Below are positions 32,001 to 50,187 of a stretch of 64,000 nt of DNA, piece after piece. The DNA comes from a virus. The stretch is taken from IMG/VR virus record IMGVR_UViG_3300024255_000023, positions 1-64,000 of that record. One strand, written 5' to 3'. Both the position numbers and the translations under genes were made by a program. How positions within the stretch are numbered: position 1 is the first letter of the stretch; the number at the start of each line of letters is the position of its first letter. A model generated the notes under the pieces. That model was not told the DNA's origin. It did not search any database and saw nothing but the letters and a program-made list of their open reading frames with translations.

Positions 32001-34248
32001 TTATTCACAAGCACCAACTGTAACAGCTGAAACTGACAAACTTACTGATATTATTGTTAACAGCTTTGGTAACAACTATCTAACAACTCCAACTGTAACT
32101 ATTACAGGCGGTGGCGCAAGCACACAAGCATCAGTAACTGCAACTACTAACAACAATGGTGTTAATAGAATTCTTATTGACACTGATGCTGACAATGATC
32201 CATTACGTGGAGACGGCTATACTAGTGTACCAACAGTAACAATTACTGATCCTAGTGCAAGAATAGTAGCACTATCAGTTGGATCTACAAACAATGCATA
32301 CTTACCATTATCAGCAGCAGTTGATGATGCTTGGACAGCAGGTAATCCATTACCAAGCTCAGTTTACTCAGATATTACATTTGGTAACGGAGTATATGTA
32401 GTAACAGGCGGTACTGGCGGTTCAGGTAGTGCAGCTACATCAACAGATGGATCAACTTGGGTATCGAGAACAATTACTAACCCAGCAGCTGGCAACTTTG
32501 TTGCACTAGCATTTGGTGCAACTAAATTTGTAGCACTAAATGATAACGGTGCTTCTGCAATATCAACTAACGGTATTGTTTGGACAGTAGGCGGCACATT
32601 GCCAGGAAGTTCAACTGATTGGATTGACATCACTTACGGTAACGGAAGATTTGTTGCAATAAGTGCAAGTGGTGATTATGCAGTTAGTGTTGATGAAGGA
32701 ACAAATTGGACTACAGTAGGAACAACTTTAGCAAATATGTTCAATACAGGATGGATAGGTATAGAATATGGTCAAGGATTATTCCTTGCATCGAGAGCAG
32801 GATCATCGGATTGGGCTGCTAGCCAAGATGGACTGATTTGGACACCAAGATTAGAATCTGGTACTGAAACGTTCAAAGCATTTGCATTTGGTAACCCATC
32901 GAATAACCCAACTTGGGTAGCTGCTTCTAATGCTGCTAATACTACTGGACAGTATATTGCAACAGGCGCAACACCGATTGGTAGAGCGTATGTAGCTGAC
33001 GGATCAGTTACTACATTAACTTTAAGAGAACCAGGAAGTAATTATCCAACTGGAACTATAACAAGTACAACAGCACCTAATACAATAGCATTATCGCTAA
33101 CCTGGAATATGTATGTCGGACAACCAATTACATTTGACGGTACTGCTTTAGAAACTATTGGATTAAGTAGTGAAACACTGTACTATATTAGTGCATTATC
33201 GGGTGGTAATATTGAAGTAAGTTTAACATCAGGTGGCGCAAGTTTTGATATTACAACTGTTACAACAGATAATATTGGAACAGTATCGTTTGAAGCAGGG
33301 CCAGTAGTAACAATTACTGATCCTAACTCAACAATTGATGCAGCAGTTAATCCAAGAATTAGAAGTGGTGCATTAGCTAACCCAACCTTTACTAACAGAG
33401 GTACAGGTTATACAACAGCAACAGCTGAATTAGCAGGCGATGGTAACGCAGACTTGTATCAACCAAGTACGTTTATTGCTGTTAAAGGATTGTTTGAATT
33501 ACCAGAACCAGGATCAAATGTTGAATTTGCAGGCATTGATGGTAGCTATTATAAGTTGGTTACAATTAGTAATGTTATCGGACAGCCTGGAAGCTACACA
33601 GCAACATTCCAAGTAAGTCCAGGACTAACAGTATTAAATTCTCCAAAAGACGGTACAGTAATTACAACTACTAACAAGTATTCACAAGTACGTCTAACAG
33701 GACATGACTTCTTGTATATTGGTACAGGTAACCAAGCAAAAACTAACTATCCATTTGTTGATATCACAACAGCAAGTATTGCAGCACAACAGTTAAGCAG
33801 TGGAGGCGGACGAGTATTCTTTACAAGTACTGACCAAGATGGTAACTTTAACGTTGGCGGATTGTTTGGAGTGCAACAGTCCACAGGTACTGCGACATTG
33901 GATGCTGACGCATTTAACTTAGCAGGATTGCAGTCATTGCAACTTGGTGGTATTGCGGTTGGTATTGGCTCAGCAGTTATTACACAGTTTAGTACAGACC
34001 CGTTCTTTACAGAAAACAGTGACAATATTGTTCCAACACAAAGAGCAATTAAATCGTACATCACCGCACAGATTGGTGGTGGACAGAGTAGCTTGAACGT
34101 TAACACATTAACAGCAGGTGTTGTATTCATTGCAAATGATGAAATAACAACTACCAGCGGCGGTCAGCTAAATATTAAAGCGAAGATGAACTTTACAGGT
34201 GGCATAGACGGCGCACCTGTAGCACTTGGATACTTCTTAAGCAGATAA
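23035..34248 (+). CDS. Giant tail-fibre protein B2 with expanded helical repeats
   Basis: At 3737 aa this is the largest gene in the window. The N-terminus AEFKLGRIRFVWQGDW matches B1 and opens seven ChtBD3-like W...Y..GDVV.YGG..Y modules (to about residue 470). A region of ten repeats built on C.RD(I/V)GYI(I/V)DA(I/L).YDL(T)YGGN, with cores near residues 675, 980, 1145, 1293, 1450, 1622, 1780, 1919, 2162 and 2379, fills the middle; B1 has one copy. A beta-helix segment (HVRNATGVRNMTVSGLRG) starts near 2420. A BNR/propeller-like region spans about 2850-3300, and the shared DQDGNFNVGGLFGVQQSTG module lies near the end. It is likely a very long receptor-binding or side fibre. Confidence 0.8.
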   Translation: MAEFKLGRIRFVWQGDWSTSRTYVADDVVSFGGKSYICIKNHTSSAAFDTDFSNAIPKWDIVSDGTSWQGDWQPEYAYAPGDVVKYGALVYIAETGHTSATFVAPDYLGLEEDLDNWTEFATSFDWKGDWTVATRFKINDLVKYGGYVYLCKTAHVSAATVTLGLEPDQAKWELFSDGLVYTGDWTLGTRYRVNDIVKYGGNVFIAKAPHTAANFITDEAANWDVFIEGFQFEDSWANATVYQIGDTVTYGGYVYVAKTNNTNAQPTASPDDWEVFTTGFSFQGDWSSLDSYKVGDVVRIGGTTYVAIADSSDQEPPEAAFWSRLNSGVKWTRSTENFSQIAGANAAGGSGSGAKFDIVKSNTVYTVSVSTGFAGTGYANNDVITLSGANLGGTTPANDIVVTVTGVTGGAIDTITHTGYSSSWIAGRNYAVGDVAIYGASSFIVIAKHTSEVANRPDNDLTASYWNLLTLGSEALALEVEGDLVYYGNQGPTRLPIGVDGQILRATDGFPDWANYGLIDNVVYVGPLGNNVPAPESGLTIDKPFSSVRYALDQIRNGYLNPKTKQILKNNKQFLVKEASNWVKHNYNVTITASATGSRTFTCNSTENLVDGLPIVFDGVLGGVTAGTVYYVDAIVSATEFRIAATPGGISVILTNTTGSMQGDASVNFVNLEQDCCYVIDALVYDISRGGTLKTTEVTNSYYTAAGNEYISNVQRDQRVINEAVYAQLKVFVDEVLSNTTPINYQGLMGINTNQRAQQVIDLDLVAEAEGKTKASTLLDIVITGIEAKSNTAIALPVLPNTTVFIKTGTYNEILPMILPEYTAVVGDELRTSVVQPQPAIALLANDKAKSTNALNRIKDISSEIISNVAITPTTGNTVPQAYINGYGGTTQSNNRLNNSIEVVKNVLATGLSIVDTMPAVGPTPTSGSNNASDAGHLNAIAQIEANYEFIKKEITAWIAVQVAGSIAPFASNFVYNAETCARDVEYILDAIRYDLTYGGNFQTSVASRSYFVDGSPVYGAGEKEETLAAYARLKVVVGDVITETAVTVSDAGDGSGNDITQDTTGTAGSAAAETFAETRVQEIYDTIDTDGTLASVIAPDTSWVAGNFTTISAEITALKSSVQAGAITWVNTNYPNFTFNESKCSRDIGYIVDGLEYDILFGSTFNSLKSGMAYRRGISSTEVVLDNQLEPTLGTIEYTRNRLKYITTRTYKVQESTDLIVNILNNGSGSVPVNYTITDPVGYDAGFFNARRLIVANKDFIIAEAEAYMVDNYNTLWSSFDSDVKATWLEDVDSIVDALQYDLTYRGNNATQTHSNKYYNDALVFVRPGSEKDESLALILRLQNIIDNIAVGDSSGWTKSSSNSDTQDTTGTAGSAGAGTYAADRLGEIYATIDTAITSASVTPSVAWTDTALQAFKTTLDARKAIIQDATLDYIKYTYPTLNFTDSVCSRDIGLLIDSLVLDTVFDSNFLTSKLAEQYRSGVVVFTGANLTENLAAIAYVNSYITEITDGVVSTPGSRKHGDRAYKLIKDMNTVVQNGLGALPPSVFPTAPGYNTASFSNTAYATASNTTGVTTTYGDAAAQLVKNAAFIQDEIRHWLEDAGNGYDGVWNSISTDGQDRCIRDVGYILDAARYDLLYGGNTQSIVAGNAYFSNFVLTISATEVPATLAAYARLKVVVGEVIAETTVTASTGVTESQDTTGTAGNTNAVEFAQARVQDIVDHINNTLPNNTIEIANTWQQLELQNAYNRVVARKTELVEDVVFWVEKFAQELTFNQATCRRDAGLIVDALARDLYTGSNFATTKAGMSYYRLIASALKVKNEQLYATVGSMEFLAQKARRVATLPANAAIEMLIEDINAYIDGGQLPIQKWVTPATGGDANDIAAASIIWENTKFIQEEVIAFIAETYPELNYNKDKCRRDIGYIIDAIRYDLTYSGDAATLRAAEYYWTKDLNDENVHTLEADEKTATLAAYDHMKFLLEDLALNTLGSPGAVQTDYAPVFRDELQTIGDAGSLSKVTTLMNTLYNTIGDILAKPQLYITDVTNNIFTMDNNVPHNLTVGDEVEFTDAPSADYLLYFVKSTPSATTFSLATYFNGPIFEYSVGPTELFACPYRTASLTDVPAVLQQQFTNLTGSAEAIKTTITEYIADKFPTLDYNVEKCERDVGYIINAVGRDMMNNSNYQTVLNALAYYRGTSAAKVTGSQKVATVQSYRELKNKIGTFVNGSPVALKRTNQLMDIIINMLDNGANVTPEIHGTITYFNDRETINAADIMTANKNFLANEATAWIEQYYGGTVEDLAGSPGTVTFNSAHNLVVNDPIKFDSGAFGDLVAGTIYYVSEVVSATEIQISDKAGGESLVLGAATGSSVATYAFDRAACRRDTESYIDAIVMDLKYPGNANSWRAAQLYLNAVQGSERADMYHVRNATGVRNMTVSGLRGNLTELNDFGTRRPTAGSYVSLDPGFGPNDSVSWVTNKSCYVQNVTTFGVGCVGCKIDGALHAGGNRSIVSNDFTQVLSDGIGVWCSGNNSLTELVSVFAYYNYSGYLADLGGRIRATNGNSSYGTYGVIAEGTDTGENPIVAEVDNLSQDALVYSVLTDGEQQVLGFEFANAGTNYTNAEVAISGTGFNAAVNDTEFRDRAVIESRIIDLNDGNGTGGEDHVTAQNVAQGGTAYKVTVAATDTALGGAYVGMNIQLTAGTGVGQYGTVLRFNNGTKDALVYKPSYDNLTVSASVNTGNLLTVPSTDTLYVDMPIYLSDDIGGATKETLYFVTALVSGTQFTISDEVGGTDLSLTSETKNVVLYAAGFDHVIPGTTIATGLDLTTGYTIEPAVTYRSPGWNAVNIATAGSVAFGSMIYVDGRFVALQEGGTGTNYSTSGITWLAGGVLPTSGNWNKVATGGGTGATATAVIGGLGGSGAVLTTELGELNNIGAPGPTQISKVTVVNGGTGYQTAPTIVFTPTAGGGGATAVCTVKDGIIQEVIITSTGAGYSQAPTVTAETDKLTDIIVNSFGNNYLTTPTVTITGGGASTQASVTATTNNNGVNRILIDTDADNDPLRGDGYTSVPTVTITDPSARIVALSVGSTNNAYLPLSAAVDDAWTAGNPLPSSVYSDITFGNGVYVVTGGTGGSGSAATSTDGSTWVSRTITNPAAGNFVALAFGATKFVALNDNGASAISTNGIVWTVGGTLPGSSTDWIDITYGNGRFVAISASGDYAVSVDEGTNWTTVGTTLANMFNTGWIGIEYGQGLFLASRAGSSDWAASQDGLIWTPRLESGTETFKAFAFGNPSNNPTWVAASNAANTTGQYIATGATPIGRAYVADGSVTTLTLREPGSNYPTGTITSTTAPNTIALSLTWNMYVGQPITFDGTALETIGLSSETLYYISALSGGNIEVSLTSGGASFDITTVTTDNIGTVSFEAGPVVTITDPNSTIDAAVNPRIRSGALANPTFTNRGTGYTTATAELAGDGNADLYQPSTFIAVKGLFELPEPGSNVEFAGIDGSYYKLVTISNVIGQPGSYTATFQVSPGLTVLNSPKDGTVITTTNKYSQVRLTGHDFLYIGTGNQAKTNYPFVDITTASIAAQQLSSGGGRVFFTSTDQDGNFNVGGLFGVQQSTGTATLDADAFNLAGLQSLQLGGIAVGIGSAVITQFSTDPFFTENSDNIVPTQRAIKSYITAQIGGGQSSLNVNTLTAGVVFIANDEITTTSGGQLNIKAKMNFTGGIDGAPVALGYFLSR
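26112..26150 (+). repeat. 39-bp direct repeat, copy 1
   Basis: Identical by eye to 28035-28073. It encodes TLAAYARLKVVVG within the helical repeats of fibre B2. Confidence 0.8.
28035..28073 (+). repeat. 39-bp direct repeat, copy 2
   Basis: Identical by eye to 26112-26150. A further motif (gatacaactggtacagcagg, encoding DTTGTAG) recurs near 26220, 27139 and 28132, showing repeat-unit copying. Confidence 0.8.
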
Positions 34249-38594: not shown

Positions 38595-38602
38595 TATAAA
38601 TA
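38595..38602 (+). promoter_or_regulatory. Late promoter TATAAATA (perfect)
   Basis: Exact match to the T4 late consensus, the only one in the set. The predicted start at 38608 lies inside a 16-bp palindrome (38605-38620). It drives the glycosyltransferase, carbamoyltransferase and oxygenase-like genes. Confidence 0.85.
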
Positions 38603-38620: not shown

Positions 38621-38635
38621 GAGGTGTATTATTAT

Positions 38636-39601
38636 ATGACAAGATCAACAGCTTTCTTTATCAATGGCGGCGCTGGCCGTGTTATAACTTCAATACCTGC
38701 ATTTGAAGCATACGAAAAAGAAAATCCAAACGACGACTTTATTATTGTTTGCGAAGCAGGCACAGACTTTTATAAAGGTCATCCAACACTTCACAAACGA
38801 GCATACGACACATGGCATAAGGGATTGTTTGAATCTTTTATTAAAGAAAGAAATTGTGTTTCGCCAGAACCGTACAGAGTTTGGGAATATTATAATCAAG
38901 AATGTAGTTTAGCACAAGCGTTTGATATAGAAATTAATAACAAAGGCTTACGTGACGTTATTATCCCGTCAGTGTATCTTAATAAAATTGAAAAAGCACA
39001 AGGCGAAAATGTAGTTAAAGAAGTTAAAGAAACAACTGGCAAAGATAAAGTAATTGTAATACAACCGTTTGGACGAACAACTGAAGAAGATTTAATTGAT
39101 GTTACATCAAGAAGTTTTAGAGCTGAAGATATGCTTGATATTGCCAATGAACTGAAAAAAGATTTTGCAGTTATATTAATGAGCGAAATACAATTAAATA
39201 TGAAAAATACAAAAGATGATAATATACCTATAGCTCAACCACAAATACCAGACATACGTGTATGGGCTGGAGTTATTAATGCCGCAGATCATTTCTTAGG
39301 TTGTGATAGTGTAGGACAACATATTGCTAAAGCACTTGATACACAGTCAACAGTAGTTATCGGAAGTACATATCCTATAAACACATCATACGTAGATGAT
39401 AAGAGTGTTACAATTTTTGATATTGGCAAAGACATGCGTGTGTATAGTCCAATTAGAATTACAAATGAAGAAGAACCTGATAGAGTAAACGACAAATGTA
39501 TGGATTTATCTAAAGCACAAACTAAAGATATTGTTGATTCAATTAGAAAAAAATTAGGAAAACCTAATAAAACATTATTAAGTGTAGGAGGCAGTAAATG
39601 A
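38636..39601 (+). CDS. GT9-type (heptosyltransferase-like) glycosyltransferase
   Basis: This is a 321-aa protein from the ATG at 38636; a GTG four codons upstream is possible, but GAGG is correctly placed for the ATG. N-terminal FFINGGAGRVITSIPAFEAY and the C-terminal stretch VWAGVINAADHFLGCDSVGQHIAKAL...VVIGSTYP match the GT9 fold of ADP-heptose:LPS heptosyltransferases, in which the C-terminal domain binds the nucleotide sugar. With ADP-heptose synthesis genes a few kilobases away, ADP-heptose is the obvious donor (inference). The acceptor could be host LPS, a virion protein or another sugar. The stop overlaps the start of the next gene (ATGA), so translation is coupled. Confidence 0.7.
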   Translation: MTRSTAFFINGGAGRVITSIPAFEAYEKENPNDDFIIVCEAGTDFYKGHPTLHKRAYDTWHKGLFESFIKERNCVSPEPYRVWEYYNQECSLAQAFDIEINNKGLRDVIIPSVYLNKIEKAQGENVVKEVKETTGKDKVIVIQPFGRTTEEDLIDVTSRSFRAEDMLDIANELKKDFAVILMSEIQLNMKNTKDDNIPIAQPQIPDIRVWAGVINAADHFLGCDSVGQHIAKALDTQSTVVIGSTYPINTSYVDDKSVTIFDIGKDMRVYSPIRITNEEEPDRVNDKCMDLSKAQTKDIVDSIRKKLGKPNKTLLSVGGSK

Positions 39602-41400
39602 GCCAGTGGATAGCAGGAATAACACGTGGTCATAATGGCGGTGTGTGTTTGCTTAAAGACGGTGAAATTGTATTCGCTATAGAAGAAGAAAGACTAAGTC
39701 GTCAAAAGTATGACGGCGGTCCATATGCAAGTATGATTAAGATACTTGAATATACTGATAAATTAGATTATATATTCGTTGCACATACACAAAGTTTAGA
39801 AGAATCAGCGGCAACAGTTGATTTTACAGGCGACAATGTGTATACAGGTCTAGCACGTAAACTAGGCTTGATTGAACGAGGTCCAGATGTAAACAATTGG
39901 GAACATCCTCAGGTTATTGATTTATCAAGAATACATCATAAATTACATGCAGGCTGTGCATTTTATCGTAGTGGATTTGACAAGGCAGTAAGTGTTATTG
40001 TAGACGGCGCTGGCACATTTATTCCAATGAACATTAGTGGCACTGATACTACAGTTTGGGAATTAGAGTCAATCTTTACATGTGCGTACCCAGATAACTT
40101 TCATACAGTATACAAACATTTAGGTGGTAATGGACCGTATATATCAATGCGAGATCCGGCTATGACAAGTGAATGGTTTATGGAAGACAAAGAAACACAT
40201 GAAGCTATTATTGATGACACTGCTGGTATTGTTAAAACATACGAAGCAGTAACACAGTATTGCGGATTTCAATCAATTGAAGCAGGTAAAACAATGGGGT
40301 TATTTCCATATGGAAAACCTAATGATAATATTCCTCCATTGTATACTGATGCTGGCGGCGCTTGGAGATCGTCAGATAGAAACGTTATTATTCCTACATA
40401 TCCAAATGGTGCGTTAGTTAATGAAGGACGGTTTAACGAACTAGTTACACCTGAGAAAATTGACGACTTGACTAAACTACAAAGTAGAAGAGATCTTGCG
40501 TATGCTGTGCAAACAGAAAGCCAAGCAGAAGTATTGCGGTTAATACGTAAGGCTGTGGAAACAACAGGACATAAGAATGTTGTACTTAGTGGCGGGTATG
40601 GGTTAAACTGTGTTGCAAATTATTGGTACTTAAAAGAACTAAAAGACGAAGGTATTAATTTATACGTTGAACCTATTTCTAGTGATGCTGGTACTGCTAT
40701 CGGTGCAGCAATGATGGGATATCATTCACTTACTAAAAGTACTACACAACGGCCCTTTGGTGAAAGTTTATACTTAGGTCCTGAGAATACATATTCAAGA
40801 GACGAAATTGAAATGTTAGCGTTACAATACAATGCCGATGTTACTGAAGCAACAAATGAAGATATTATTAAATTAATTACTGAAAAGAATATTGTATCAT
40901 TATTTCAAGGACGATCAGAATCAGGCCCACGTGCATTAGGTAACAGAAGTATACTTTATGATCCAACTGATCCAAATGGCAAAGATCATGTTAATAGAAT
41001 TAAACGTAGAGAATACTTCCGTCCGTTTGCTGGTACTATACTAGCTGAACATGCAGAAGAATGGTTTGATATGCGTGGAATGAAAGATTCACCACATATG
41101 ATGTATGCTATGAATTGTCAAGAAGGTGTAGCAGAAAAGATTCCGAGTATTATACATGTTGATGGCACATGTCGTATACAAACAGTAACTAGAGAACAGA
41201 ATGAAGTTTATTATGATTTAATCAACGAGTTTTATAAACAAACAGGCGTCCCAATTATATTTAATACATCATTTAATTTAGGCGGCGAGCCATTAGTAGA
41301 AACATTAGATGACGCATTTAGAACTCTTGCTAATAGTGGAATTGAGTACTTGTACTTGCCTGAACATAATGTGAAAGTGTCTATTAAAAATGATAGATAG
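39598..41400 (+). CDS. NodU/CmcH-family carbamoyltransferase
   Basis: This 600-aa protein is the full length of the family. It has N-terminal GITRGHNGGVCLLKDGEIV and AIEEERLSRQKYDGG, the metal-site region IHHKLHAGCAFYRSGF then VIVDGAG, NVVLSGGYGLNCVANY, and the C-terminal domain FQGRSESGPRALGNRSIL, RREYFRPFAG and FNTSFNLGGEPLV. These enzymes move a carbamoyl group from carbamoyl phosphate, via a carbamoyl-adenylate, to a hydroxyl, usually on a sugar. In Pseudomonas a member of this family (WapO) carbamoylates core heptose, which fits the neighbouring heptose genes. GGAGG precedes the ATG. It overlaps the glycosyltransferase (4 bp) and the next gene (11 bp). Confidence 0.85.
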   Translation: MSQWIAGITRGHNGGVCLLKDGEIVFAIEEERLSRQKYDGGPYASMIKILEYTDKLDYIFVAHTQSLEESAATVDFTGDNVYTGLARKLGLIERGPDVNNWEHPQVIDLSRIHHKLHAGCAFYRSGFDKAVSVIVDGAGTFIPMNISGTDTTVWELESIFTCAYPDNFHTVYKHLGGNGPYISMRDPAMTSEWFMEDKETHEAIIDDTAGIVKTYEAVTQYCGFQSIEAGKTMGLFPYGKPNDNIPPLYTDAGGAWRSSDRNVIIPTYPNGALVNEGRFNELVTPEKIDDLTKLQSRRDLAYAVQTESQAEVLRLIRKAVETTGHKNVVLSGGYGLNCVANYWYLKELKDEGINLYVEPISSDAGTAIGAAMMGYHSLTKSTTQRPFGESLYLGPENTYSRDEIEMLALQYNADVTEATNEDIIKLITEKNIVSLFQGRSESGPRALGNRSILYDPTDPNGKDHVNRIKRREYFRPFAGTILAEHAEEWFDMRGMKDSPHMMYAMNCQEGVAEKIPSIIHVDGTCRIQTVTREQNEVYYDLINEFYKQTGVPIIFNTSFNLGGEPLVETLDDAFRTLANSGIEYLYLPEHNVKVSIKNDR

Positions 41401-42007
41401 TATTTTTGGTGCACCTATTTTAAAATGTGAAATGCCTGGGCACAACGAAATAAAAGAACAATTTTCATCTTTTATTAAAGACAGTACTGCATTTCAACAT
41501 AGTAGTTCGCAGTGGGAATGTAATTGCGAAACTACGCATAATTCGCATGAAGAAAATAATCAATTACCGTGGGATATATTTTATGAAAATGTGCAAGGAC
41601 CGTTACAAGCGTACCTTAATTACTTAGGTATGGCTCCAGATGATCTTAAAAATTTATCAGGAAGAGCCTGGGCAAACAAATATAGTCAACATCAACATCA
41701 AGACGTACATTCGCACGGTGGCGGAAATAATTTAGTTAGTTGTGCATATGTACTTGACTTGCCCGATAATGATCCTGATTGTGGACAGTTTATGTTTTAC
41801 AATAGTGCATTGAATTGGTTTCCAACTCATATAACTGAAAGATTTTATGGTTCTGGAAATAACGGTAAATTATTTAATCCTTTAATGCAAGAAGGCGATA
41901 TTGTATTTTTTCCAAGTAACTTAGATCACTATGTAACATATAATAAAACAGAAAAGTTGCGTGTATCTATTAGTGCTAATTTTGGTATCGATTTTCCAGC
42001 CAATTAG
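41390..42007 (+). CDS. 2OG-Fe(II) oxygenase-like phage protein
   Basis: This is a 205-aa protein. ANKYSQHQHQDVHSHGGG followed by LVSCAYVLDLPDND..GQFMFYN and GDIVFFPSNLDHYV..KLRVSISANFG matches the jelly-roll 2-oxoglutarate/Fe(II) oxygenase-like proteins common in marine phages. Putative iron ligands are the His cluster near residue 105 and the His in LDHYV; the Arg in LRVSIS would hold 2-oxoglutarate. The substrate is unknown; family members hydroxylate proteins, sugars or small molecules. It overlaps the carbamoyltransferase by 11 bp with no clear ribosome binding site, suggesting coupled translation. Its 3' end overlaps the convergent gmhB-like gene by 32 bp. Confidence 0.6.
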   Translation: MIDSIFGAPILKCEMPGHNEIKEQFSSFIKDSTAFQHSSSQWECNCETTHNSHEENNQLPWDIFYENVQGPLQAYLNYLGMAPDDLKNLSGRAWANKYSQHQHQDVHSHGGGNNLVSCAYVLDLPDNDPDCGQFMFYNSALNWFPTHITERFYGSGNNGKLFNPLMQEGDIVFFPSNLDHYVTYNKTEKLRVSISANFGIDFPAN

Positions 42008-42668
42008 CAACAGACATTAAATCATCAAATATAATAGTTTTCTTTTTTATCTTTTGATTAGAAAATTTATTTAATTCTTTTATAGTTTCTAAACCGTAAC
42101 CTGTTTTAACTAGTATTGGAGTTGCACCAATTTTAAATGCAGCTTTTAGATCGGATATTTTATCTCCAACAAAATATCCTTTCTTAAATTTAATAAATGA
42201 ATTTTCTTCTTCGCATCTTTTAAACATACCAACATTGGGTTTAGCATACATATCATTACGTAAACTCGATGCACTATAATATAATGCATCAACACTTAAA
42301 CAACCTGCTTCGCCAAGTAACTCAAACATATAGTCGTGTACTTTGTCTACATCAGATTCGGAAAACATTCCTTTAGCAATTCCGCCTTGATTAGTAATAA
42401 TAGCAATTTTATGTCCCAGGCGTCTTATTTTAGCAACAGCTTCTAAGCTACCCTCGATTGGTACAAAATCTTTAACTTTATATGTATACTCGCCTTGATC
42501 AATATTAATAACACCGTCTCGATCTAATCCTACAACAACTTTAGGTGCAATGTTGTCTGTACTATTGTAATAAGGTATTGGGTCGTCAGTACTGTAGCGT
42601 ATATTACTCTTTTTTGTAGACGTTTTTGTTGTTTTAGAGTTGTCTGTACTCCAGTCTATTTTATACAT
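41976..42668 (-). CDS. gmhB: GmhB-like HAD phosphatase (heptose bisphosphate phosphatase)
   Basis: This is a 230-aa protein from the ATG at 42668, chosen because it overlaps the upstream stop by only eight bases. The HAD motif GLDRDGVIN (Asp49, Asp51), AIITNQGGIAKG, KPNVGMF and YFVGDKISDLKAA match D-glycero-D-manno-heptose 1,7-bisphosphate phosphatase, which removes the C7 phosphate. Two oddities: a 40-residue Ser/Thr-rich N-terminal extension, and no cysteines in the loop that carries the zinc site in E. coli GmhB (here YYSASSLRNDMYAKP). It is the last gene of the hldE operon. A histidinol-phosphatase-like activity is the alternative, but the operon context favours heptose. Confidence 0.75.
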   Translation of the reverse strand: MYKIDWSTDNSKTTKTSTKKSNIRYSTDDPIPYYNSTDNIAPKVVVGLDRDGVINIDQGEYTYKVKDFVPIEGSLEAVAKIRRLGHKIAIITNQGGIAKGMFSESDVDKVHDYMFELLGEAGCLSVDALYYSASSLRNDMYAKPNVGMFKRCEEENSFIKFKKGYFVGDKISDLKAAFKIGATPILVKTGYGLETIKELNKFSNQKIKKKTIIFDDLMSVANWLENRYQN

Positions 42669-43227
42669 TAGAACATCCAAAGTTAAATGAAACAGAAGTA
42701 CGAATTGCATTTTTACCACTTTGCATTACACAATGTTTCATGTATGAAGGGAATAATAACATCATACCTTTTTCAGGCCATATATCTTCGTATGCTACAG
42801 TGTATTCGGTCTTTTTATTATGTAAAACTAAATCACTATGTGGGTTTGTACTAAACAATCTAAATGACCCAGCATCCTCATTTGCTCTAACCCAATATGT
42901 GCCACTAATACCGTATATTCCGTGATGATGCATTTGATGACTATCATTTGGCAAATAATCTTGAGTCCAATATTTAATACGTATTTCAGGATCTATTTCA
43001 ATACCTGTATGTTCTTGGAATTCAAGAGCACCTTCAATTGCCTGTTGGAAAAAGTCTGGTACTAGTTCATGTACTGGAATTTGCTTTTCCCAAAAATCTG
43101 TAGATACTGAATCGTTTTCTCTACTAAGACTACCTAGTAATGGAACTATTTTTTCCTCCATTGCATCTGCAATTTCATCACTAAGTTTTATACGTAAGAT
43201 AGGTATTGGAAATAAGTTTGTAAACAT
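42661..43227 (-). CDS. 2OG-Fe(II) oxygenase-like protein, copy 2
   Basis: This 188-aa protein is a close paralogue of the gene just upstream. N-terminal FTNLFPIPILRIKL, then FWEKQIPVHELVPDFF, YWTQDYLPNDSHQMHHHGIYGISGTYWVRANEDAG, PEKGMMLLFPSYMKHCV and IRTSVSFNFG. This fits the phage and marine 2OG-FeII_Oxy_5-type family, with the His cluster, the His of MKHCV and Arg of IRTSVS as probable iron and 2-oxoglutarate contacts. The start codon directly follows the previous stop. The substrate is unknown; the operon suggests a sugar intermediate or a glycosylated product. Confidence 0.65.
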   Translation of the reverse strand: MFTNLFPIPILRIKLSDEIADAMEEKIVPLLGSLSRENDSVSTDFWEKQIPVHELVPDFFQQAIEGALEFQEHTGIEIDPEIRIKYWTQDYLPNDSHQMHHHGIYGISGTYWVRANEDAGSFRLFSTNPHSDLVLHNKKTEYTVAYEDIWPEKGMMLLFPSYMKHCVMQSGKNAIRTSVSFNFGCSNV

Positions 43228-43839
43228 TTAAACTCCAGGACAACAGTCAAATGATATCGAAGTTCTAACAACATCATCATTTCTGCCAGATTCTACAGCA
43301 TGTTTTATATACGAAGGGAATAATAACAACAAGCCTTTTTCAGGCCATATGTCGTGATGTCCTTGTACAAATTTATTTAAAGGATTGCCTGCACGAACAT
43401 ACTCGGCTGTGTTGTTAGGATTATAGAAGCGTATTGGTCCTGCATTTTCATTTGCTCTAATAAAATAGGTTCCGCTTATGCCATTTATGCCATGTTGATG
43501 TATGTCGTGTCTATCTTGTTTTACATAATTTTGTGTCCAGTAACGGACTTTAAAATTAGGATTAACAAAATAGCTTGTTTGATCAGCATACTCGTATGCA
43601 GCTGTTCTTACTACGTCCCAAAAGTCAGGAACAATTTCATGCACTGGAATTTTGTTTTCCCAAAAATCTGTGTACATAGTATCTACAGAAATGTATTCAT
43701 CACCAACTGAATCTAGTATAGGTGTGTTACGTTCTAACTTATCTAATAATGGAACAATCTCATTCTCCATTGTGTCGGCCATATCTTTATCTATATGATG
43801 CGTTAGTATAGCTACTGGGAATAATTCTTTTATTTCCAT
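43228..43839 (-). CDS. 2OG-Fe(II) oxygenase-like protein, copy 1
   Basis: This 203-aa protein is a paralogue of the following gene (shared FWE(N/K)(K/Q)IPVHE(I/L)VPDF, YWTQ(N/D)Y, HGI.GISGTY, PEKG(L/M)(L/M)LLFPSY.KH and RTS(I/V)SF). It has an extra insertion SVGDEYISVDTMYTDFWE near residue 45 and a C-terminus SFDCCPGV. The family is the jelly-roll Fe(II)/2-oxoglutarate oxygenases. It starts immediately after the cupin stop codon and its stop abuts the next start, so the run is translated as a unit. The tandem pair suggests two related hydroxylations or a heterodimer (inference). Confidence 0.65.
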   Translation of the reverse strand: MEIKELFPVAILTHHIDKDMADTMENEIVPLLDKLERNTPILDSVGDEYISVDTMYTDFWENKIPVHEIVPDFWDVVRTAAYEYADQTSYFVNPNFKVRYWTQNYVKQDRHDIHQHGINGISGTYFIRANENAGPIRFYNPNNTAEYVRAGNPLNKFVQGHHDIWPEKGLLLLFPSYIKHAVESGRNDDVVRTSISFDCCPGV

Positions 43840-44226
43840 TTACTTACTTTCTATTTTTTGACTATCGCCAGGACCAATTCTATAATTGTCCTCAACACTA
43901 TCAGCAGTGCTAACTTCAGTTACACTTCCTTCTTTACTAACACAAATTAGCTGATGTGGTTGTAACGGAGGATTATGCCATGTTGCACCTTCGATTAATT
44001 CTTTTTCATATAATGTAGAATTATCAGTATCAATATACGCAACTTTAAATATTCCACTATTTACAAACCAAGTTTCGTCTTTTTCTTTATGAAAGTGCAT
44101 ACTTGTCTTAGCACCTTCTCTATTAAATACCATTATCTTACCGCAGTAGTGTTCGTTGGTGGCCCATATCATTTCGTAGCCCCAGCCCTTATTTACTACA
44201 CCGGTTAATCTAGTTGGTTGATCCAT
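43840..44226 (-). CDS. Single-domain cupin, sugar-isomerase or epimerase-like
   Basis: This is a 128-aa protein. The start VVNKGWGYEMIWATNEHYCGKIMVF resembles cupins related to the C-terminal domain of mannose-6-phosphate isomerase type II. Cupin motif 1 is SMHFHKEKDETWFV and motif 2 is NPPLQPHQLI, giving metal-binding His residues. In sugar operons such cupins act as isomerases or epimerases, or have no proven function. Here it could serve heptose synthesis, for instance a step otherwise missing (no GmhA isomerase is seen), but that is speculation. It overlaps hldD by 17 bp. Confidence 0.6.
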   Translation of the reverse strand: MDQPTRLTGVVNKGWGYEMIWATNEHYCGKIMVFNREGAKTSMHFHKEKDETWFVNSGIFKVAYIDTDNSTLYEKELIEGATWHNPPLQPHQLICVSKEGSVTEVSTADSVEDNYRIGPGDSQKIESK

Positions 44227-45031
44227 TAATATATTCCTCTACTGTTTCAAATTCAATTCCACTTGTTACTGTACTTAATTTTTTTATATCAGCGCAAGTG
44301 TATTCTTGATATTGTCCTTTTAATTTATTAGGCATTGCTATATAGTTTATTTCTGCATTATATTTTTTAGCAATTGCTTCTGCCACTGTTTGAAAACTTG
44401 TTGCTTTGCCAGTTCCTGTATTAAACAGTCCTGACTTTTTATTATTTAATAGTTGTAAATGTATTTTACAAATATCATTAACAGATATAAAATCTCTTTT
44501 ATATTTGTCACTATTTTCAAATAATGTTATAGTTCCAGTTTCTGTAGCTTGGGTAGTAAACTTACTCACCGGACTCATCATATCATTTTTATGATCTTCA
44601 AACGGTCCAAATACATTAAAATAACGTAATCCTTGAACTACAATATTATGTTTTTGCTGTTGCCATACCCATCTATCAAATAGATATTTACTGTATGCAT
44701 ATGGGCTCTGTGGTTGCTTAGGAGCGTCTTCGTTAAAGTCTGTATTAGTACCGTATACACTGGCACTACTAGCATATTGAAAGTTTACACCTTTAGTATT
44801 ACATTGATGATAAAGCCATTTAGAAAACTCATAGTTTTGTAACATAACTTTGTCTACATCTGTTTCTGTAGTAGCAGAGATTGCTCCAAGGTGTATAACC
44901 CAATCAAATCCTTCTACTTCGGGTAAAAAATCATCCTGCCATTCGTATCCTGATAACTCAAAATTATCTTGTAAATAGAATGTTAAATTCTGTCCTACAA
45001 ATCCTTTATGACCTGTTATTAGTATTTTCAT
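44210..45031 (-). CDS. hldD: ADP-L-glycero-D-manno-heptose 6-epimerase-like protein
   Basis: This 273-aa protein is slightly shorter than the E. coli enzyme (310). It belongs to the short-chain dehydrogenase family: Rossmann motif GHKGFVG (residues 7-13), SSASVYG, and the catalytic YAYSK with Tyr111 and Lys115. LRYFNVFGPFEDHKNDMMSP followed by FKRDFISVNDI-like YKRDFISVNDICKIHL is characteristic of HldD (RfaD). The enzyme inverts C6 of ADP-D-glycero-D-manno-heptose using bound NADP. It overlaps hldE by 26 bp and the cupin by 17 bp. A generic NDP-sugar epimerase is the alternative, but the hldE neighbour makes HldD much more likely. Confidence 0.85.
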   Translation of the reverse strand: MKILITGHKGFVGQNLTFYLQDNFELSGYEWQDDFLPEVEGFDWVIHLGAISATTETDVDKVMLQNYEFSKWLYHQCNTKGVNFQYASSASVYGTNTDFNEDAPKQPQSPYAYSKYLFDRWVWQQQKHNIVVQGLRYFNVFGPFEDHKNDMMSPVSKFTTQATETGTITLFENSDKYKRDFISVNDICKIHLQLLNNKKSGLFNTGTGKATSFQTVAEAIAKKYNAEINYIAMPNKLKGQYQEYTCADIKKLSTVTSGIEFETVEEYINGSTN

Positions 45032-46166
45032 CTCTTGCCTTTAAAATATCTGTTGTACTATGTCCTTTAACTGTAGGCACAATATAGACAGGTGCTAAAT
45101 CGTGACCTACTACTTCTTCTATTGTATAGTCGCCACCTTTAACAATTAAATTAGGTTTTATATCTTTAATTAAATTATAAGGGGTTTCTTCACTAAATTC
45201 AATAATTTCATCTACATACGGAATTAATTCAAGTTGTTGTCTACGTATAGCAAAATTATTATAAGGACGATCGTTACCCTTTAAGTTCTGTATAGACTCG
45301 TCTGAATTTAATCCTACAATCAAATAATCACCTTGCGCTTTAGCTTCTTTAAGAAGTGTTAAGTGCCCAGTATGTAGTATGTCAAAACACCCGTTTGTAA
45401 ATACTGTCTTTTTTCTAATGTCTTCAGGCGTTAGAACGTAAGTACCATGCCGCTTTACACTTTCGGTTGAACCAACAACAGCAATATCAAGACATTCTTG
45501 AAACTTCATTCCGTTTGTTAATCCATAAACAAAAGAGGCAAGAAAACAATCTCCAGCACCAGTTACATCTGATACTTCAACTTTATTAGGTGTAGAGATA
45601 TATCTAATTTTTTCAAATTCAGCAGTACATGTATTACCGCCGCTAGTGATAATTATATTACCTTCCCATTTATCAAACCCAAGATCAATAAATTCTTTAG
45701 CATTAGGTTTAACTAACCATGCACCTTTATAATGATCTGCATGTCTTTTTGGATCAACAATAACTTTACAATTGTGCTTATTACAGTGTTTAATTATTCG
45801 TGGTGCAGCATCAAGCACACCTTTATTATAATCACTTAAAATTACATATTCAAAGTCAGACAAATCTAATTCTTCAATATCATCTGCAATACCGTCTCCG
45901 TTTGCAATAACATCTTGATCAATACGTGTAATATAATGATTATCACTTAGCACTCTTGTCTTTATTGATTTTTCATCATCGTAATGAAGTTGTGTTACAT
46001 GTACACCAAGTGATTCTAAGTTTTTAAATACTAAAGATGCACCACCGTACGACTCGTATTCGTTGGTTACATTTACAACAGGAACAGGTGCTTCAGGATT
46101 TAATCTAGTAGTAGTTCCATGAATATATCTATCGATAATAATATCGCCAATGATTAATACTTGCAT
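45006..46166 (-). CDS. hldE: Bifunctional heptose kinase / ADP-heptose synthase
   Basis: This is a 386-aa two-domain protein. Residues 1-245 are a PfkB-type kinase: GDIIIDRY, GGASLVFKNLESLG, LSDYNKGVL and the catalytic GAGD with Asp206. Residues 253-370 are a nucleotidyltransferase: VFTNGCFDILHTGH (HTGH at 265-268), NSDESIQNLKG, IKGGDYT-like IVKGGDYT. HldE phosphorylates heptose 7-phosphate at C1 and then transfers AMP to make ADP-heptose. E. coli HldE has 477 residues; the shortening is in the kinase half. A sigma70-type promoter lies directly upstream, placing the predicted mRNA start on the ATG. It is the first gene of the heptose operon. Confidence 0.9.
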   Translation of the reverse strand: MQVLIIGDIIIDRYIHGTTTRLNPEAPVPVVNVTNEYESYGGASLVFKNLESLGVHVTQLHYDDEKSIKTRVLSDNHYITRIDQDVIANGDGIADDIEELDLSDFEYVILSDYNKGVLDAAPRIIKHCNKHNCKVIVDPKRHADHYKGAWLVKPNAKEFIDLGFDKWEGNIIITSGGNTCTAEFEKIRYISTPNKVEVSDVTGAGDCFLASFVYGLTNGMKFQECLDIAVVGSTESVKRHGTYVLTPEDIRKKTVFTNGCFDILHTGHLTLLKEAKAQGDYLIVGLNSDESIQNLKGNDRPYNNFAIRRQQLELIPYVDEIIEFSEETPYNLIKDIKPNLIVKGGDYTIEEVVGHDLAPVYIVPTVKGHSTTDILKARDENTNNRS

Positions 46167-46172
46167 ATCTAT

Positions 46173-46201
46173 ATTATACTATACTCCGTTAGGTTAGTCA
46201 A
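46173..46201 (-). promoter_or_regulatory. Sigma70-type promoter of the heptose operon
   Basis: Read on the minus strand: TTGACT (46201-46196), a 17-base spacer, TATAAT (46178-46173). The predicted start falls on the A of the hldE ATG (46166), so the mRNA would be leaderless. The -35 box overlaps the 3' end of the Nudix gene. Confidence 0.75.
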
Positions 46202-46625
46202 GTAGTTTTATTACATCAATAACTGTTTTTAATTTTGTAATATTACTCTTTCTATTTAAAGTGTTCATTAATCCGGAATGTAGGGGCTTTGGCCATTTTC
46301 CAAAACTAACCCACGCAAAACCGTCATGTTCGCTATTTAATTTTGGTAGGAAATCTTTTTCAATAACGCACAGATATGTATGGAAGTGAAACTTAGAGTC
46401 ATTAGAAATAAAAGTTTCTAATGGTATTGTTTTCTTAATATCTATTACGCCAATTTCTTCTTCAATTTCGCGACGCAATCCTTCAAAAGGACTTTCGCCC
46501 TCTTCATTACCGCCACCTGCAAGCCCCCACAGGTTATTACGTTTCCCATTTGCTCTATGCAAAAATAGAAATCTGTTTGATTCTAAAGAATAAATTAATG
46601 CGCCACTACAAACGATGTCTCTCAT
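46194..46625 (-). CDS. Nudix hydrolase
   Basis: This is a 143-aa protein with a complete Nudix box, GGNEEGESPFEGLRREIEEE followed by IGV, fitting G-x5-E-x7-REUxEExGU. The fold is a hydrolase of nucleoside diphosphates linked to another group, Mg-dependent. The substrate is not visible; nucleotide sugars, oxidised nucleotides or NAD-type cofactors are all possible. It lies between gp15 (13 bp after its stop) and hldE, on the same strand as both. T4 also carries a Nudix gene (nudE), but this need not be the equivalent. Confidence 0.8.
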   Translation of the reverse strand: MRDIVCSGALIYSLESNRFLFLHRANGKRNNLWGLAGGGNEEGESPFEGLRREIEEEIGVIDIKKTIPLETFISNDSKFHFHTYLCVIEKDFLPKLNSEHDGFAWVSFGKWPKPLHSGLMNTLNRKSNITKLKTVIDVIKLLD

Positions 46626-46638
46626 ACTAATAATTATG

Positions 46639-48063
46639 CTAGTATGTCATTCTCCAAGTGCCGTTTGGATATTCGCCTTCGTATGACAATATCCAATTTT
46701 CGCCAGTCCATTTGTATTGAGTTTGTGTATTAAGATTAGTAACAAAAGTTTCGTTAGATACAGAACTAGCATCAAAGACTATGTGCCAACTTAATCCGTC
46801 CCATTCGATAATATCATTTTCGCTTGCAACAAAATTACTATTATCTTCATTTTTCCAAGCAATTGCTCCGTTGACATTTGATGCATCGCCGATACTACCT
46901 AGTAATAATAATCGAGTATTTGTTGAACTATCTTGAACTTGTCTTGGATCAAAGCGTGTAGGATCGATTATATATTCTATACTTCCTCTAGTACCGTTAG
47001 GCCCAACAATGTCACTATCTGAAGGTAATGAATCTTCATCAAGTGAAACAATTTGTAATTCTGTTTCATCTAATGTATTAATTTGAACAGTTCCGACAAT
47101 CTCTAATCCTGTACTTCGTTGTAATCTAAGTTGTGTTACCCCTGCTTCATAAATAAATGGCTGTGCAATCATCCAGGCTGTCCATGAAGTTGATCCAACA
47201 ACTCCGTTCTTTATTAGTTTAGCAACTCCGTCAATAAACACAATGTCATAATCTTGATATGTAGTAACAACTAATGCATCTTCATTAGTTAATGCTTGCC
47301 CGTTGTTAATTTTATCAGTTTCTTCATTTTCTTTAATTTTTTGTTCAACTAAACTTTGTGTATATGCGTTTTCGTCTATATTTACTTCTAGTCCGTTGTC
47401 TGCAAATATAGCTGTAATGATTTTAGTAATAACACCAAGTTTCTTAACTTTTGCCGGCGGACTAATAAAGATTGGTGTAGTTAATGTTATAGTAGCTACG
47501 TCGATCTCGTTTTCAGTACCAGTTGGGATTGATCTTGAAGTAAAATTAATATTATCCATATTTAACACACTTAGACTAGTCCAGTCAATATAGTTGTCTG
47601 TAGTTTGTATTTCTAAACTAGGATTAAACAACATAAAAATTTGTTCGAGTATTTGTAATTTTTGATCTGTATTTGTACTCCAAATATCAACATTAACAGT
47701 AAGAGTATACGGAGTAGGCATTAAGCGTTCAACTGTATAATTTTTTCCTGCTTGATTTAAATATTCTTGTCCTGCACTATCATATGCACGTTCTCGTACG
47801 TTTAGTTTGTTTACGTAACTACTATCAGCTAATCTTGCAGTATCCATTTCTAAATTAGTAATGTATACAGCCATACGTGGCGCACTAGGTATTTTGTTCT
47901 CGCTATTGTCACGTAAAATGCTTCCAACTTGCCTAGTTAAATCACCATACATAACTGGTACTTGTACTAATCTACCTTGACCATCTTTATAACTAAATTG
48001 TCCAAACAGACGTATAATCTGTGTCAAGTACCTTCTTATTTGTCCATCATAAAAATGTTGCAT
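46639..48063 (-). CDS. gp15: Tail sheath stabiliser (gp15-like), enlarged
   Basis: This is a 474-aa protein. The N-terminal half (FYDGQIRRYLTQIIRLFGQF, VPVMYGDLTRQVGSILRDNSE, MPTPYTLTVNVDIWSTNTDQKLQILEQIFMLFNPSLEIQ, PIFISPPAKVKKLG) matches gp15, the proximal tail terminator that joins the sheath to the neck. T4 gp15 has 272 residues; here an extra C-terminal region of about 220 residues carries fibre-like cassettes (AIAWKNEDNSNFVAS..W, NTQTQYKWTGENWIL). Its start overlaps the gp14 stop by one base. In T4 genes 13-14-15 are colinear; here 14-15 are inverted relative to 13. Confidence 0.8.
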   Translation of the reverse strand: MQHFYDGQIRRYLTQIIRLFGQFSYKDGQGRLVQVPVMYGDLTRQVGSILRDNSENKIPSAPRMAVYITNLEMDTARLADSSYVNKLNVRERAYDSAGQEYLNQAGKNYTVERLMPTPYTLTVNVDIWSTNTDQKLQILEQIFMLFNPSLEIQTTDNYIDWTSLSVLNMDNINFTSRSIPTGTENEIDVATITLTTPIFISPPAKVKKLGVITKIITAIFADNGLEVNIDENAYTQSLVEQKIKENEETDKINNGQALTNEDALVVTTYQDYDIVFIDGVAKLIKNGVVGSTSWTAWMIAQPFIYEAGVTQLRLQRSTGLEIVGTVQINTLDETELQIVSLDEDSLPSDSDIVGPNGTRGSIEYIIDPTRFDPRQVQDSSTNTRLLLLGSIGDASNVNGAIAWKNEDNSNFVASENDIIEWDGLSWHIVFDASSVSNETFVTNLNTQTQYKWTGENWILSYEGEYPNGTWRMTY

Positions 48064-49166
48064 TAGTTATCCGCCTTTGGTCTAAGTGCTTTAGATAAAC
48101 TTTGTCTCTCAGTAACTTGTTCACCTGCAATATTGTTTGTACCAGTGTTATTAATAAAGTCGCCTTTTTGTGTATTTGTATTATCGTCACCATAAACAAA
48201 TGCACGTTTAACATCATAAACTTTGTTCCATTTATTATTTTTATATTGAAATAATCGGTTAGGTAAAAAGTCTGTTCTTAAAAAATAGTCATTAGTTTGC
48301 GGATCACCCGGAAATGCTACGCCAAACCCAAATGCTTCACCATTAGGAGATATAGCATCGCCGATAATATATCCTCTATATCCTGCTCTATCTGGCGGCG
48401 CCATTTGAGACAAGCCGGAAGAATCTTTAGTTTCAGTTAGCTCAACAATACCGTCATCGTCGACAGCAAGTGAAAAGTAATGACTAATGTCATACCCTGA
48501 TTTTTCTACGTTAGTAGTTGCTTCACTGACTACCGCTTGTGCAATTTGCATTTCTTTTTCGTATGTAGATAAAATATCTCTAAGATTGTCTCCGCCTGGA
48601 TCTTCTTCAACGGCAGGTAAGTCAAGTATGTCTTTGTATTCTTGTCCATCGTATATTTGTTTTAATTTTATACGATATAAGTGTGGGTACCAAGTTTGTG
48701 AAAACCCATCAGCTGAACGATTAATGTCTTCAACAACATAAAATCTTTTTAATGCTACAGATGCATCGTTTTCTGCATATTCATCTATTAAATGAGGAAG
48801 TTCAAATACATCGCCGGGCATAATCTTTCTTCCCATTGTTTCAACTGTACCTCTTATGTGTACAGACATAAACAATGTATCATTGCTTAAGAATAAACCA
48901 AATTGACTTAGGTCAAAATCGTTATCCTGTACACTATAGATTCCTCTAATTCTGTAAATGTCTTTATCATACTTACGATCTCTATTTTCTAAAAATAGCA
49001 TATCTTGTATTTGTGTATGATCTTTCGCGGTTGTCCCGTCATCTGTACCGATGTATTTGTATACATGGATATCAGTCCCGCCAATAGTAAACATCTCTAG
49101 AATCTGTTTATCTAGAAATTCAAAATCAGCGCCGCGTTCGGGTTTATATAAACTAAGTCTTGGCAT
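48063..49166 (-). CDS. gp14: Neck protein gp14-like
   Basis: This is a 367-aa protein from the ATG at 49166 (MPRLSLYKPERGADFEFLDKQ). An ATG two codons earlier (49172) and a longer frame to 49220 exist, but those starts fall inside or before the promoter. MFTIGGTDIHVYKYIG, IQDMLFLENRDRKYD and GRKIMPGDVFELPHLIDEY are typical of gp14 of marine T4-like phages, which with gp13 closes the head and accepts the tail. T4 gp14 has 256 residues. The C-terminal part has a fibre-like cassette (NRLFQYKNNKWNKVYDVKRAF). The ATG sits exactly six bases from the end of a late octamer, with no ribosome binding site. Confidence 0.8.
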   Translation of the reverse strand: MPRLSLYKPERGADFEFLDKQILEMFTIGGTDIHVYKYIGTDDGTTAKDHTQIQDMLFLENRDRKYDKDIYRIRGIYSVQDNDFDLSQFGLFLSNDTLFMSVHIRGTVETMGRKIMPGDVFELPHLIDEYAENDASVALKRFYVVEDINRSADGFSQTWYPHLYRIKLKQIYDGQEYKDILDLPAVEEDPGGDNLRDILSTYEKEMQIAQAVVSEATTNVEKSGYDISHYFSLAVDDDGIVELTETKDSSGLSQMAPPDRAGYRGYIIGDAISPNGEAFGFGVAFPGDPQTNDYFLRTDFLPNRLFQYKNNKWNKVYDVKRAFVYGDDNTNTQKGDFINNTGTNNIAGEQVTERQSLSKALRPKADN

Positions 49167-49171
49167 ATACA

Positions 49172-49179
49172 TATTTATC
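49172..49179 (-). promoter_or_regulatory. Late promoter GATAAATA for gp14-gp15 (minus strand)
   Basis: It lies back to back with the plus-strand late promoter at 49184-49191, four bases away. T4 spacing puts the start at 49166, the A of the gp14 ATG. Confidence 0.75.
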
Positions 49180-49183
49180 GCGA

Positions 49184-49191
49184 GATAAATA
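49184..49191 (+). promoter_or_regulatory. Late promoter GATAAATA for gp13
   Basis: Predicted start 49197; GGAGAA (49199-49204) then lies upstream of the ATG at 49213. It forms an inverted pair with the octamer at 49172-49179. Confidence 0.8.
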
Positions 49192-49212
49192 CTTGTACGG
49201 AGAACTTTGTAT

Positions 49213-50187
49213 ATGGCCACTAAAAAACAAGAAGTATTTGATTATGTTAACGCTATGCTCGGCGGCGGAATGATTGATGTTGAACTAGACCCAATTCATT
49301 ATGAAACTGCATTGAATAAAGCATTAAGCCGCTTTAGACAACGTAGTGATAATGCAGTTGAAGAATCGTATTTGTTTCTAGATACTATTATAGACGTTAA
49401 CGAGTACACTCTTCCAGGTGAAGTTATGGAGGTTAGAAAAATGTTTCGCAGAAGTATTGGATCACGTCCTGGAACTTCGGCATCCGGAGGACCAATATAC
49501 TCAACTACAGTAATAGCGTCTGCTTCTCAACAAGTGTTTGATGTGAACTATAACCTTGCAGCTATAGCAACAGTTGTAGTAACTATAAATGGTACAACAA
49601 CGACTAGCTATGGCATTGACAATGATGCAAGAACTATTACGTTTAATTCAGGGTTAACTGCAAATGATGTTGTTAGTATCAAACTCTACGAAAACGGAAA
49701 AAATGGTGGCGGCAGTTTGTTTGATCCGTTCAGTTTAGCATATACAAATGCATACCTGTTATCAAGTTCAAATATGGGCGGTCTAGCAACATATGATATG
49801 TTTAGCCAATACCAAGAACTAGTAGGTAGAATGTTTGGTAGTTTCATTGAATTTAAATGGAATTCAACAACTAAAAAATTAACATTACTACAACGTCCTC
49901 GAGCAGTAGAAACTATAATGCTATATGCATATAACTATCGTCCAGATGAACAATTACTGTCTGACTATCTAGCACAACAGTGGATCAAAGATTACACACT
50001 TGCTAGTTGTAAGTATATGTTAGGCGAAGCACGTTCAAAGTTTGCTACTATTGCAGGTCCACAAGGTGGGTCAACACTCAATGGTAATGATCTTAAAAAT
50101 GAAGCAATGCAAGAAATGGAAAGATTAGATCAAGAAGTAATTCAACAAGTCGGCGGCGGCGTTGGTTACGGATTTACAATAGGTTAA
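49213..50187 (+). CDS. gp13: Neck protein gp13-like
   Basis: This is a 324-aa protein (T4 gp13 has 309). The start ATKKQEVFDYVNAMLGGGM is followed by LDPIHYETALNKALSRFRQRS, EESYLFLDTIIDVNEYTLPGEV and RKMFRRSIG, and C-terminally by YNYRPDEQLLSDYLAQQWIKDYTLASCKYMLGEARSKF, the pattern of gp13 in T4-like phages. Residues about 97-165 (SQQVFDVNY...VVVTINGTTTTSYGID...SIKLYENG) look like an inserted beta domain. ATG 49213 is preferred over an upstream TTG because GGAGAA lies eight bases before it. gp13 acts in the neck complex with gp14. Confidence 0.8.
   Translation: MATKKQEVFDYVNAMLGGGMIDVELDPIHYETALNKALSRFRQRSDNAVEESYLFLDTIIDVNEYTLPGEVMEVRKMFRRSIGSRPGTSASGGPIYSTTVIASASQQVFDVNYNLAAIATVVVTINGTTTTSYGIDNDARTITFNSGLTANDVVSIKLYENGKNGGGSLFDPFSLAYTNAYLLSSSNMGGLATYDMFSQYQELVGRMFGSFIEFKWNSTTKKLTLLQRPRAVETIMLYAYNYRPDEQLLSDYLAQQWIKDYTLASCKYMLGEARSKFATIAGPQGGSTLNGNDLKNEAMQEMERLDQEVIQQVGGGVGYGFTIG

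Follow-up and report, generated by a model that had tools for sequence, protein, structure and literature searches.

A small cupin as candidate sedoheptulose-7-phosphate isomerase among the ADP-heptose genes of a T4-like phage

The IMG/VR virus record IMGVR_UViG_3300024255_000023 carries a compact set of genes for ADP-heptose synthesis on its minus strand, and we describe here this cluster, the small cupin gene within it and the neighboring genes that may use its product. The window, meaning the whole stretch that we analyzed, comprises positions 1 to 64,000 and is nearly all of the record (64,522 bp). Its phage origin is clear: the record is a fragment of a T4-like myovirus, judged by its tail fiber, neck, sheath and terminase genes. 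A sequence-only reading of the window had reported six minus-strand genes from 46166 to 41976, and all six open reading frames (ORFs) were found as described, each overlapping or abutting its neighbor (Table 1). The operon that it proposed is longer than six genes, however, as the same-strand run begins with gp14, gp15 and a Nudix gene, which precede hldE at spacings no larger than 27 bp. Immediately downstream of this run lies a related plus-strand unit (38624-42007) with genes for a glycosyltransferase (GT), a NodU-type carbamoyltransferase and a third 2-oxoglutarate (2OG)-Fe(II) oxygenase. The GT, the carbamoyltransferase and the late promoters described below were absent from the sequence-only reading, and they connect the cluster to virion production.

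Table 1. Genes and putative promoters at the heptose locus (window coordinates).
Feature	Position	Strand	Details
gp14	48063-49220	-	Start of minus-strand run
gp15	46639-48063	-	Second gene of minus-strand run
Nudix hydrolase	46194-46625	-	PF00293 2.3e-15; directly before hldE in run
HldE-like fused D,D-heptose-7-phosphate kinase and D,D-heptose-1-phosphate adenylyltransferase	45006-46166	-	386 aa; kinase ~1-248, adenylyltransferase ~249-386
HldD-like ADP-heptose 6-epimerase	44210-45031	-	273 aa; TIGR02197 6.3e-76
Cupin, proposed sedoheptulose-7-phosphate isomerase replacing GmhA	43840-44226	-	128 aa; metal ligands HxH/E/H
2OG-Fe(II) oxygenase, phrog_81	43228-43839	-	PF13759 (2OG-FeII_Oxy_5) 2.2e-15; phrog_81 5e-30
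2OG-Fe(II) oxygenase, phrog_81	42661-43227	-	PF13759 1.1e-14; phrog_81 3e-28
GmhB-like HAD phosphatase	41976-42668 (ORF open to 42719)	-	PRK08942 1.6e-39
2OG-Fe(II) oxygenase, third of module	41390-42007	+	PF13759 2.6e-13
NodU/NolO-type O-carbamoyltransferase	39598-41400	+	PF16861 1.8e-60; PF02543 8.7e-28; phrog_1601 1e-170
GT9-fold heptosyltransferase-like GT, phrog_8954	38624-39601	+	AlphaFold2 model and Foldseek
T4-type late promoter TATAAATA	38595-38602	+	29 bp upstream of GT start
Putative late promoter GATAAATA for gp14-gp15-Nudix-hldE-hldD-cupin-2OG-2OG-gmhB	49172-49179	-	Upstream of run

Profile searches ranked the HldE, HldD and GmhB families best for the three proteins to which the earlier reading had given these names, and their catalytic residues aligned, which makes it very likely that the genes encode relatives of these enzymes. 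HldE matched PRK11316 best (7e-80), with TIGR02198 covering the kinase (1e-50) and TIGR02199 the adenylyltransferase (3e-43). Aligned to the Escherichia coli protein, it has the GDxxxDRY, PEAPVPV, GAGD, HxGH and STT motifs in place; the tree of its kinase domain consisted largely of very long outgroup branches and decided little. HldD scored 255.5 bits against TIGR02197 (curated cutoff 274.6), with GalE as the next-best family (8e-19), and shares the SSA, YxxxK, HK lysine and LKGxYQ elements of E. coli HldD. In a tree it joins other phage HldDs next to the E. coli enzyme, at a distance from GalE, RfbB and Gmd, although deep support is weak. The GmhB-like protein retains the DRDG, KP and VGDK catalytic motifs in alignment with E. 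coli GmhB, and its gene likely starts at an ATG at 42668 that overlaps the stop of the upstream gene as ATGTATAA. All three proteins scored below NCBIfam curated cutoffs, as expected of divergent phage proteins, yet far ahead of other families; the exception is GmhB, for which PRK08942 is the best family and generic HAD models score nearby. Because HldE is bifunctional, four of the five steps from sedoheptulose-7-phosphate (S7P) to ADP-L,D-heptose can be assigned, where the same enzymes had previously been counted as three of four dedicated steps.

The remaining step is the isomerization of S7P. We found no SIS-type GmhA (PF13580) in the 64,522-bp record, in line with the sequence-only reading, nor in 26 related module-bearing phage records, eight of which are complete cyanophage genomes. 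That reading had left the step to the host or to another part of the genome, a proposal that our comparisons do not support, since the cupin that is always present is a better candidate. On the strength of its sequence and genomic context, the cupin is probably the isomerase of the pathway.

Several features of the protein itself point this way. Its match to Pfam Cupin_2 is below threshold, and 12 residues are near-invariant over 178 cupins of the family: Y27, K30, S42, H44, H46, K49, E51, G58, H91, E104, S106 and D113. When the family profile was compared with the D-lyxose ketol-isomerase of Bacillus subtilis (2y0o), the YCxK, HxH, KxE, H and E-S residues aligned; this alignment (33.4 bits), the top-scoring single domain among the five matches listed, spans the family's invariant residues. 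A structure model of the cupin (pLDDT 95.8) has ketol-isomerases among its top Foldseek matches, and an archaeal D-lyxose/D-mannose isomerase solved with fructose (7nzp) is among the best. The interconversion of fructose and mannose is the same C1-C2 exchange between a ketose and a manno-aldose as that of S7P and D-glycero-D-manno-heptose-7-phosphate. Both ketol-isomerases share active-site residues with the phage cupin; they act on free sugars, whereas the phage cupin is a smaller, single-domain protein whose substrate would be a seven-carbon sugar phosphate. The cysteine dioxygenase label of its family (phrog_7851) appears to be wrong, as no cysteine dioxygenase was among the matches of the profile search against the Protein Data Bank (PDB).

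The distribution of the cupin follows that of the heptose genes. It occurs in 21/21 related phage records with HldE and in 0/5 without it, a count that leaves out an HldE match in record G011 covering only part of the adenylyltransferase domain. Close cupins were found in 81 viral loci; within ~8 kb, all 81 have HldD, 80 have HldE and none has GmhA. Such co-occurrence counts are inflated by kinship among the sequences. The cupin is also fused to the HldE adenylyltransferase domain in two viral loci (L207 and L210) and to HldD in one archaeon (L106).

Archaea provide a view of exchange between the two proteins. We searched 371 genomes of the phylum (DPANN) of one cupin-bearing archaeon for the HldE kinase and read 60 loci, of which 34 have GmhA, 15 have the cupin, 11 have neither and none has both. 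Were the loci independent, the probability of this zero overlap by chance would be 1.5e-7; they are not, and the value is therefore a guide only. The two genes also take the same operon slot, ahead of HldD, the kinase and an adenylyltransferase/GmhB portion, which is filled by the cupin in L223 and L228 and by GmhA in L234 and L246. Either can be fused to the kinase C terminus, the cupin in L254, L258, L261, L264 and L269 and GmhA in L226, L248, L253 and L265; sister genomes of the five kinase-cupin fusions carry a kinase-GmhA fusion instead. Genome-wide absence of GmhA is a confounded test in archaea, since genomes may contain GlmS, further SIS proteins or a GmhA gene at a separate locus (in two cases next to GHMP-kinase genes); we therefore relied on exclusivity at the operon level. 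A literature search returned nothing relevant that links GmhA, cupin and heptose.

It is also conceivable, although unlikely, that the cupin is no isomerase and that host GmhA, which many Gram-negative hosts possess, performs the S7P step while the cupin, for example, anomerizes, epimerizes or regulates. Cupin functions are diverse, and dioxygenases and decarboxylases appear among the top Foldseek matches. Several observations weigh against the isomerase assignment: oxalate decarboxylases and quercetinases match the cupin fold about as well as isomerases do; some archaeal genomes with the cupin retain GmhA at another locus; an exception to exclusivity comes from an Acidimicrobiaceae metagenome-assembled genome (MAG), whose locus L090 combines the cupin with a split HldE and a short ORF resembling GmhA; and several cellular copies of the cupin stand apart from hld genes. 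In Binatia-like MAGs, moreover, the cupin sits beside a GDP-mannose-4,6-dehydratase-like gene, which it directly precedes in L067, L073 and ~20 further loci; this neighbor suggests a mannose-forming isomerase there, yet the family has other roles too. What an accessory role would leave unexplained is the alternation of GmhA and cupin in archaeal hld operons, never together, in one slot and in alternative kinase fusions. Nor would any other consistently linked gene supply a keto substrate to an epimerase, and the invariant residues of the cupin correspond to those of a ketol-isomerase.

The plus-strand unit suggests a use for the sugar. The GT reaches PF01075 (GT9) only at 0.0072, under the cutoff, and a profile search against PDB sequences gave nothing useful, so we assigned its fold from an AlphaFold2 model (pLDDT 82.6). 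The top Foldseek matches are the GT9 protein 3tov, WaaF (1psw), WaaC (2gt1 and 2h1h) and TibC (4rap and 4rb4), and the protein has a D-x4-H motif and a GT-B fold nearest WaaC/WaaF. The carbamoyltransferase has both the Carbam_trans_N and Carbam_trans_C domains, and its gene follows that of the GT within ~1 kb in 21/21 GT loci. We lean slightly toward ADP-heptose as the donor of the GT. Two findings call for caution. We did not find the WaaC-type catalytic Asp near the GT N terminus, where, in a remote alignment, an invariant Arg aligns with the presumed catalytic Asp13 of WaaC; the reaction may thus differ, or another Asp may be the catalytic residue. In addition, five GT-NodU records, all of them IMG/VR contigs and possibly fragments, have neither the cupin nor a full HldE, so the pair may function without phage-made ADP-heptose.

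Promoter placement suggests late expression. The T4 late promoter consensus TATAAATA has one perfect copy in the window, compared with 11.15 expected from shuffling; this copy precedes the GT gene and is retained in relatives. The NATAAATA motif has 16 sites, of which 11 stand no more than 70 bp ahead of a gene start, against a random mean of 0.52. One of the sites precedes the minus-strand run, but assignment of GATAAATA to this run is uncertain because it lies very close to the likely start of gp14. Two giant Thr-rich ORFs, at 14198-23002 (2,934 aa, with a match to the CBM_5_12 domain) and 23035-34248 (3,737 aa), also lie behind late-type promoters; both may be glycan acceptors or receptor-binding proteins.

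The terminase is 54% identical to that of PA5oct-like jumbo phages, its closest relatives, and we therefore rejected an affiliation of the window with the cyanophages (Kyanoviridae). The source is a marine giant phage in which the heptose genes sit among late virion genes; a phage collection searched for near-identical DNA gave no match. The Nudix gene matches the PADLOC candidate family PDC-S07 (2.4e-13), and a defense-system interpretation was set aside, as the PADLOC scan matched no other gene.

From computed identities, aligned residues, the GT fold, promoter placement and the co-occurrence and slot exchange of genes, we infer enzyme activities, a GT donor, an acceptor and a place for carbamoylation as follows. 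The cupin would convert host S7P to D-glycero-D-manno-heptose-7-phosphate, the HldE kinase domain would form the 1,7-bisphosphate, the GmhB-like phosphatase would take off the 7-phosphate, the second HldE domain would form ADP-D,D-heptose and HldD would convert it to ADP-L,D-heptose. The GT9-fold transferase would then pass on the heptose, the most likely acceptor being a tail-fiber or other virion protein whose side chains are perhaps hydroxylated by the neighboring 2OG oxygenases, and the NodU-type enzyme would carbamoylate the heptose. We give even chances to the view that the locus is a late-expressed phage pathway for heptose synthesis and attachment, possibly with carbamoylation, in which a tail fiber or another virion protein is the acceptor.

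Against this proposal, the host may make ADP-heptose itself. It is quite unlikely that the product is a related activated sugar, such as ADP-D,D-heptose alone or one with another nucleotide. The kinase domain is ~60 residues shorter than its E. coli counterpart, the zinc loop is missing in all phage GmhBs aligned (a further point against the proposed pathway) and the GT base residue is altered; according to a commentary on viral heptose enzymes, CTP or UTP can also serve as a substrate for some HldEs. The HldD motifs are intact, however, and the STT loop of the window HldE carries His rather than the Arg that the same source ties to nucleotide promiscuity.

Of the host surface and the virion, both of which the sequence-only reading had named as destinations, the context favors the virion, although we put a virion acceptor at slightly short of even. 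The module lies between fiber and neck genes both in Kyanoviridae and in the PA5oct-like window phage, and late expression beside virion genes favors a virion target. It is somewhat unlikely that the heptose goes onto lipopolysaccharide (LPS) or another host glycan, where it might, for instance, block competing phages. The GT9 enzymes WaaC and WaaF work on LPS, the core heptose of Pseudomonas aeruginosa is carbamoylated, and hld genes occur in polysaccharide-like clusters without the phrog_8954 GT in S-SM2, S-T4 and P-TIM68. Against this stand the late-type promoters, the placement amid fiber and neck genes, and the heptose-free LPS of Synechococcus WH8102 and CC9311 (PMC4515613), hosts of cyanophage relatives, which argues against host LPS as a general target. 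Modification of phage DNA, like the glycosylated hydroxymethyl bases of other phages, is highly improbable: the promoters are late rather than early, the GT structure is nearest GT9 heptosyltransferases rather than DNA glycosyltransferases, and no base-hydroxymethylating gene was recognized among the genes searched in this fragmentary record. DNA hypermodification systems of other phages do include carbamoyltransferases and glycosyltransferases.

Taken as a whole, the proposal that ADP-heptose operons of marine phages, some archaea (DPANN) and candidate phyla radiation (CPR) bacteria use a small cupin as a second S7P isomerase unrelated to GmhA, and that phages decorate their own tail proteins with the product via a GT9-fold transferase and a carbamoyltransferase, is tentative and less than an even prospect. 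If true, the cupin would fill a gap in the ADP-heptose pathways of phages and many archaea, and a function would be found for a protein family whose current annotation is cysteine dioxygenase or cupin of unknown role. Viral ADP-heptose would gain a testable use, namely heptosylation and possibly carbamoylation of the virion through a module common to distantly related T4-like phages. The putative cupin substitution, drawn from comparative genomics, is to us the most interesting part.

Virus-encoded ADP-heptose enzymes have already been reported as functional (Tang et al., Science 2024, as described in PMC11461863 and PMC11573728), where the phosphatase is said to be absent from viruses and the purpose of viral ADP-heptose is described as unclear. 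By comparison, the window phage does carry a GmhB-like gene. These commentaries mention neither a cupin isomerase nor a GT9-NodU partner, and both the cupin substitution and the GT9-NodU coupling appear to be new. Heptosylation of an adhesin protein has a precedent in the autotransporter heptosyltransferases TibC/Aah (PMC4358343), GT-B enzymes that use ADP-heptose and are structural neighbors of the phage GT model; TibC differs, being described as a dodecameric, iron-binding protein of ~400 aa with Asp110 as its base.

Comparable modules in known cyanophages are poorly annotated. The Kyanoviridae module T4-GC 302-308 (P-SSM2, S-CAM1, S-CAM3, S-SSM7 and Sf-FS3) likewise places a phrog_8954 GT, NodU, HldE domains, the cupin and HldD between fiber and neck genes, but its HldE is split, its hldD has the opposite orientation, and the position of the window's GmhB is taken by a mini-HAD. 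This ~110-aa protein (T4-GC 306; L008:11113-11457 in P-SSM2, with homologs in L009-L016) is labeled "phosphoheptose isomerase"; we rejected it as a GmhA, as its DIDGT, GKP and IDDK motifs indicate that it is probably a phosphatase. An insertion in the S-SSM7 module (L011, 9854-12998) adds a tryptophan halogenase and a second carbamoyltransferase, which suggests further tailoring. Cyanophage-type GT-NodU-HldE-cupin-HldD modules also occur on contigs assigned to a Rhodobacteraceae MAG (L068) and a Euryarchaeota MAG (L131), which are probably phage contigs binned into MAGs.

Measured against the bacterial pathway of GmhA, HldE, GmhB and HldD with the transferases WaaC/WaaF, the window has HldE, HldD and GmhB homologs with the expected motifs and a GT9-fold transferase nearby. 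It differs in a cupin in place of SIS-type GmhA, a compact HldE kinase, a GmhB without the zinc loop and a coupled carbamoyltransferase, and in that its genes are phage-borne and under late-type promoters.

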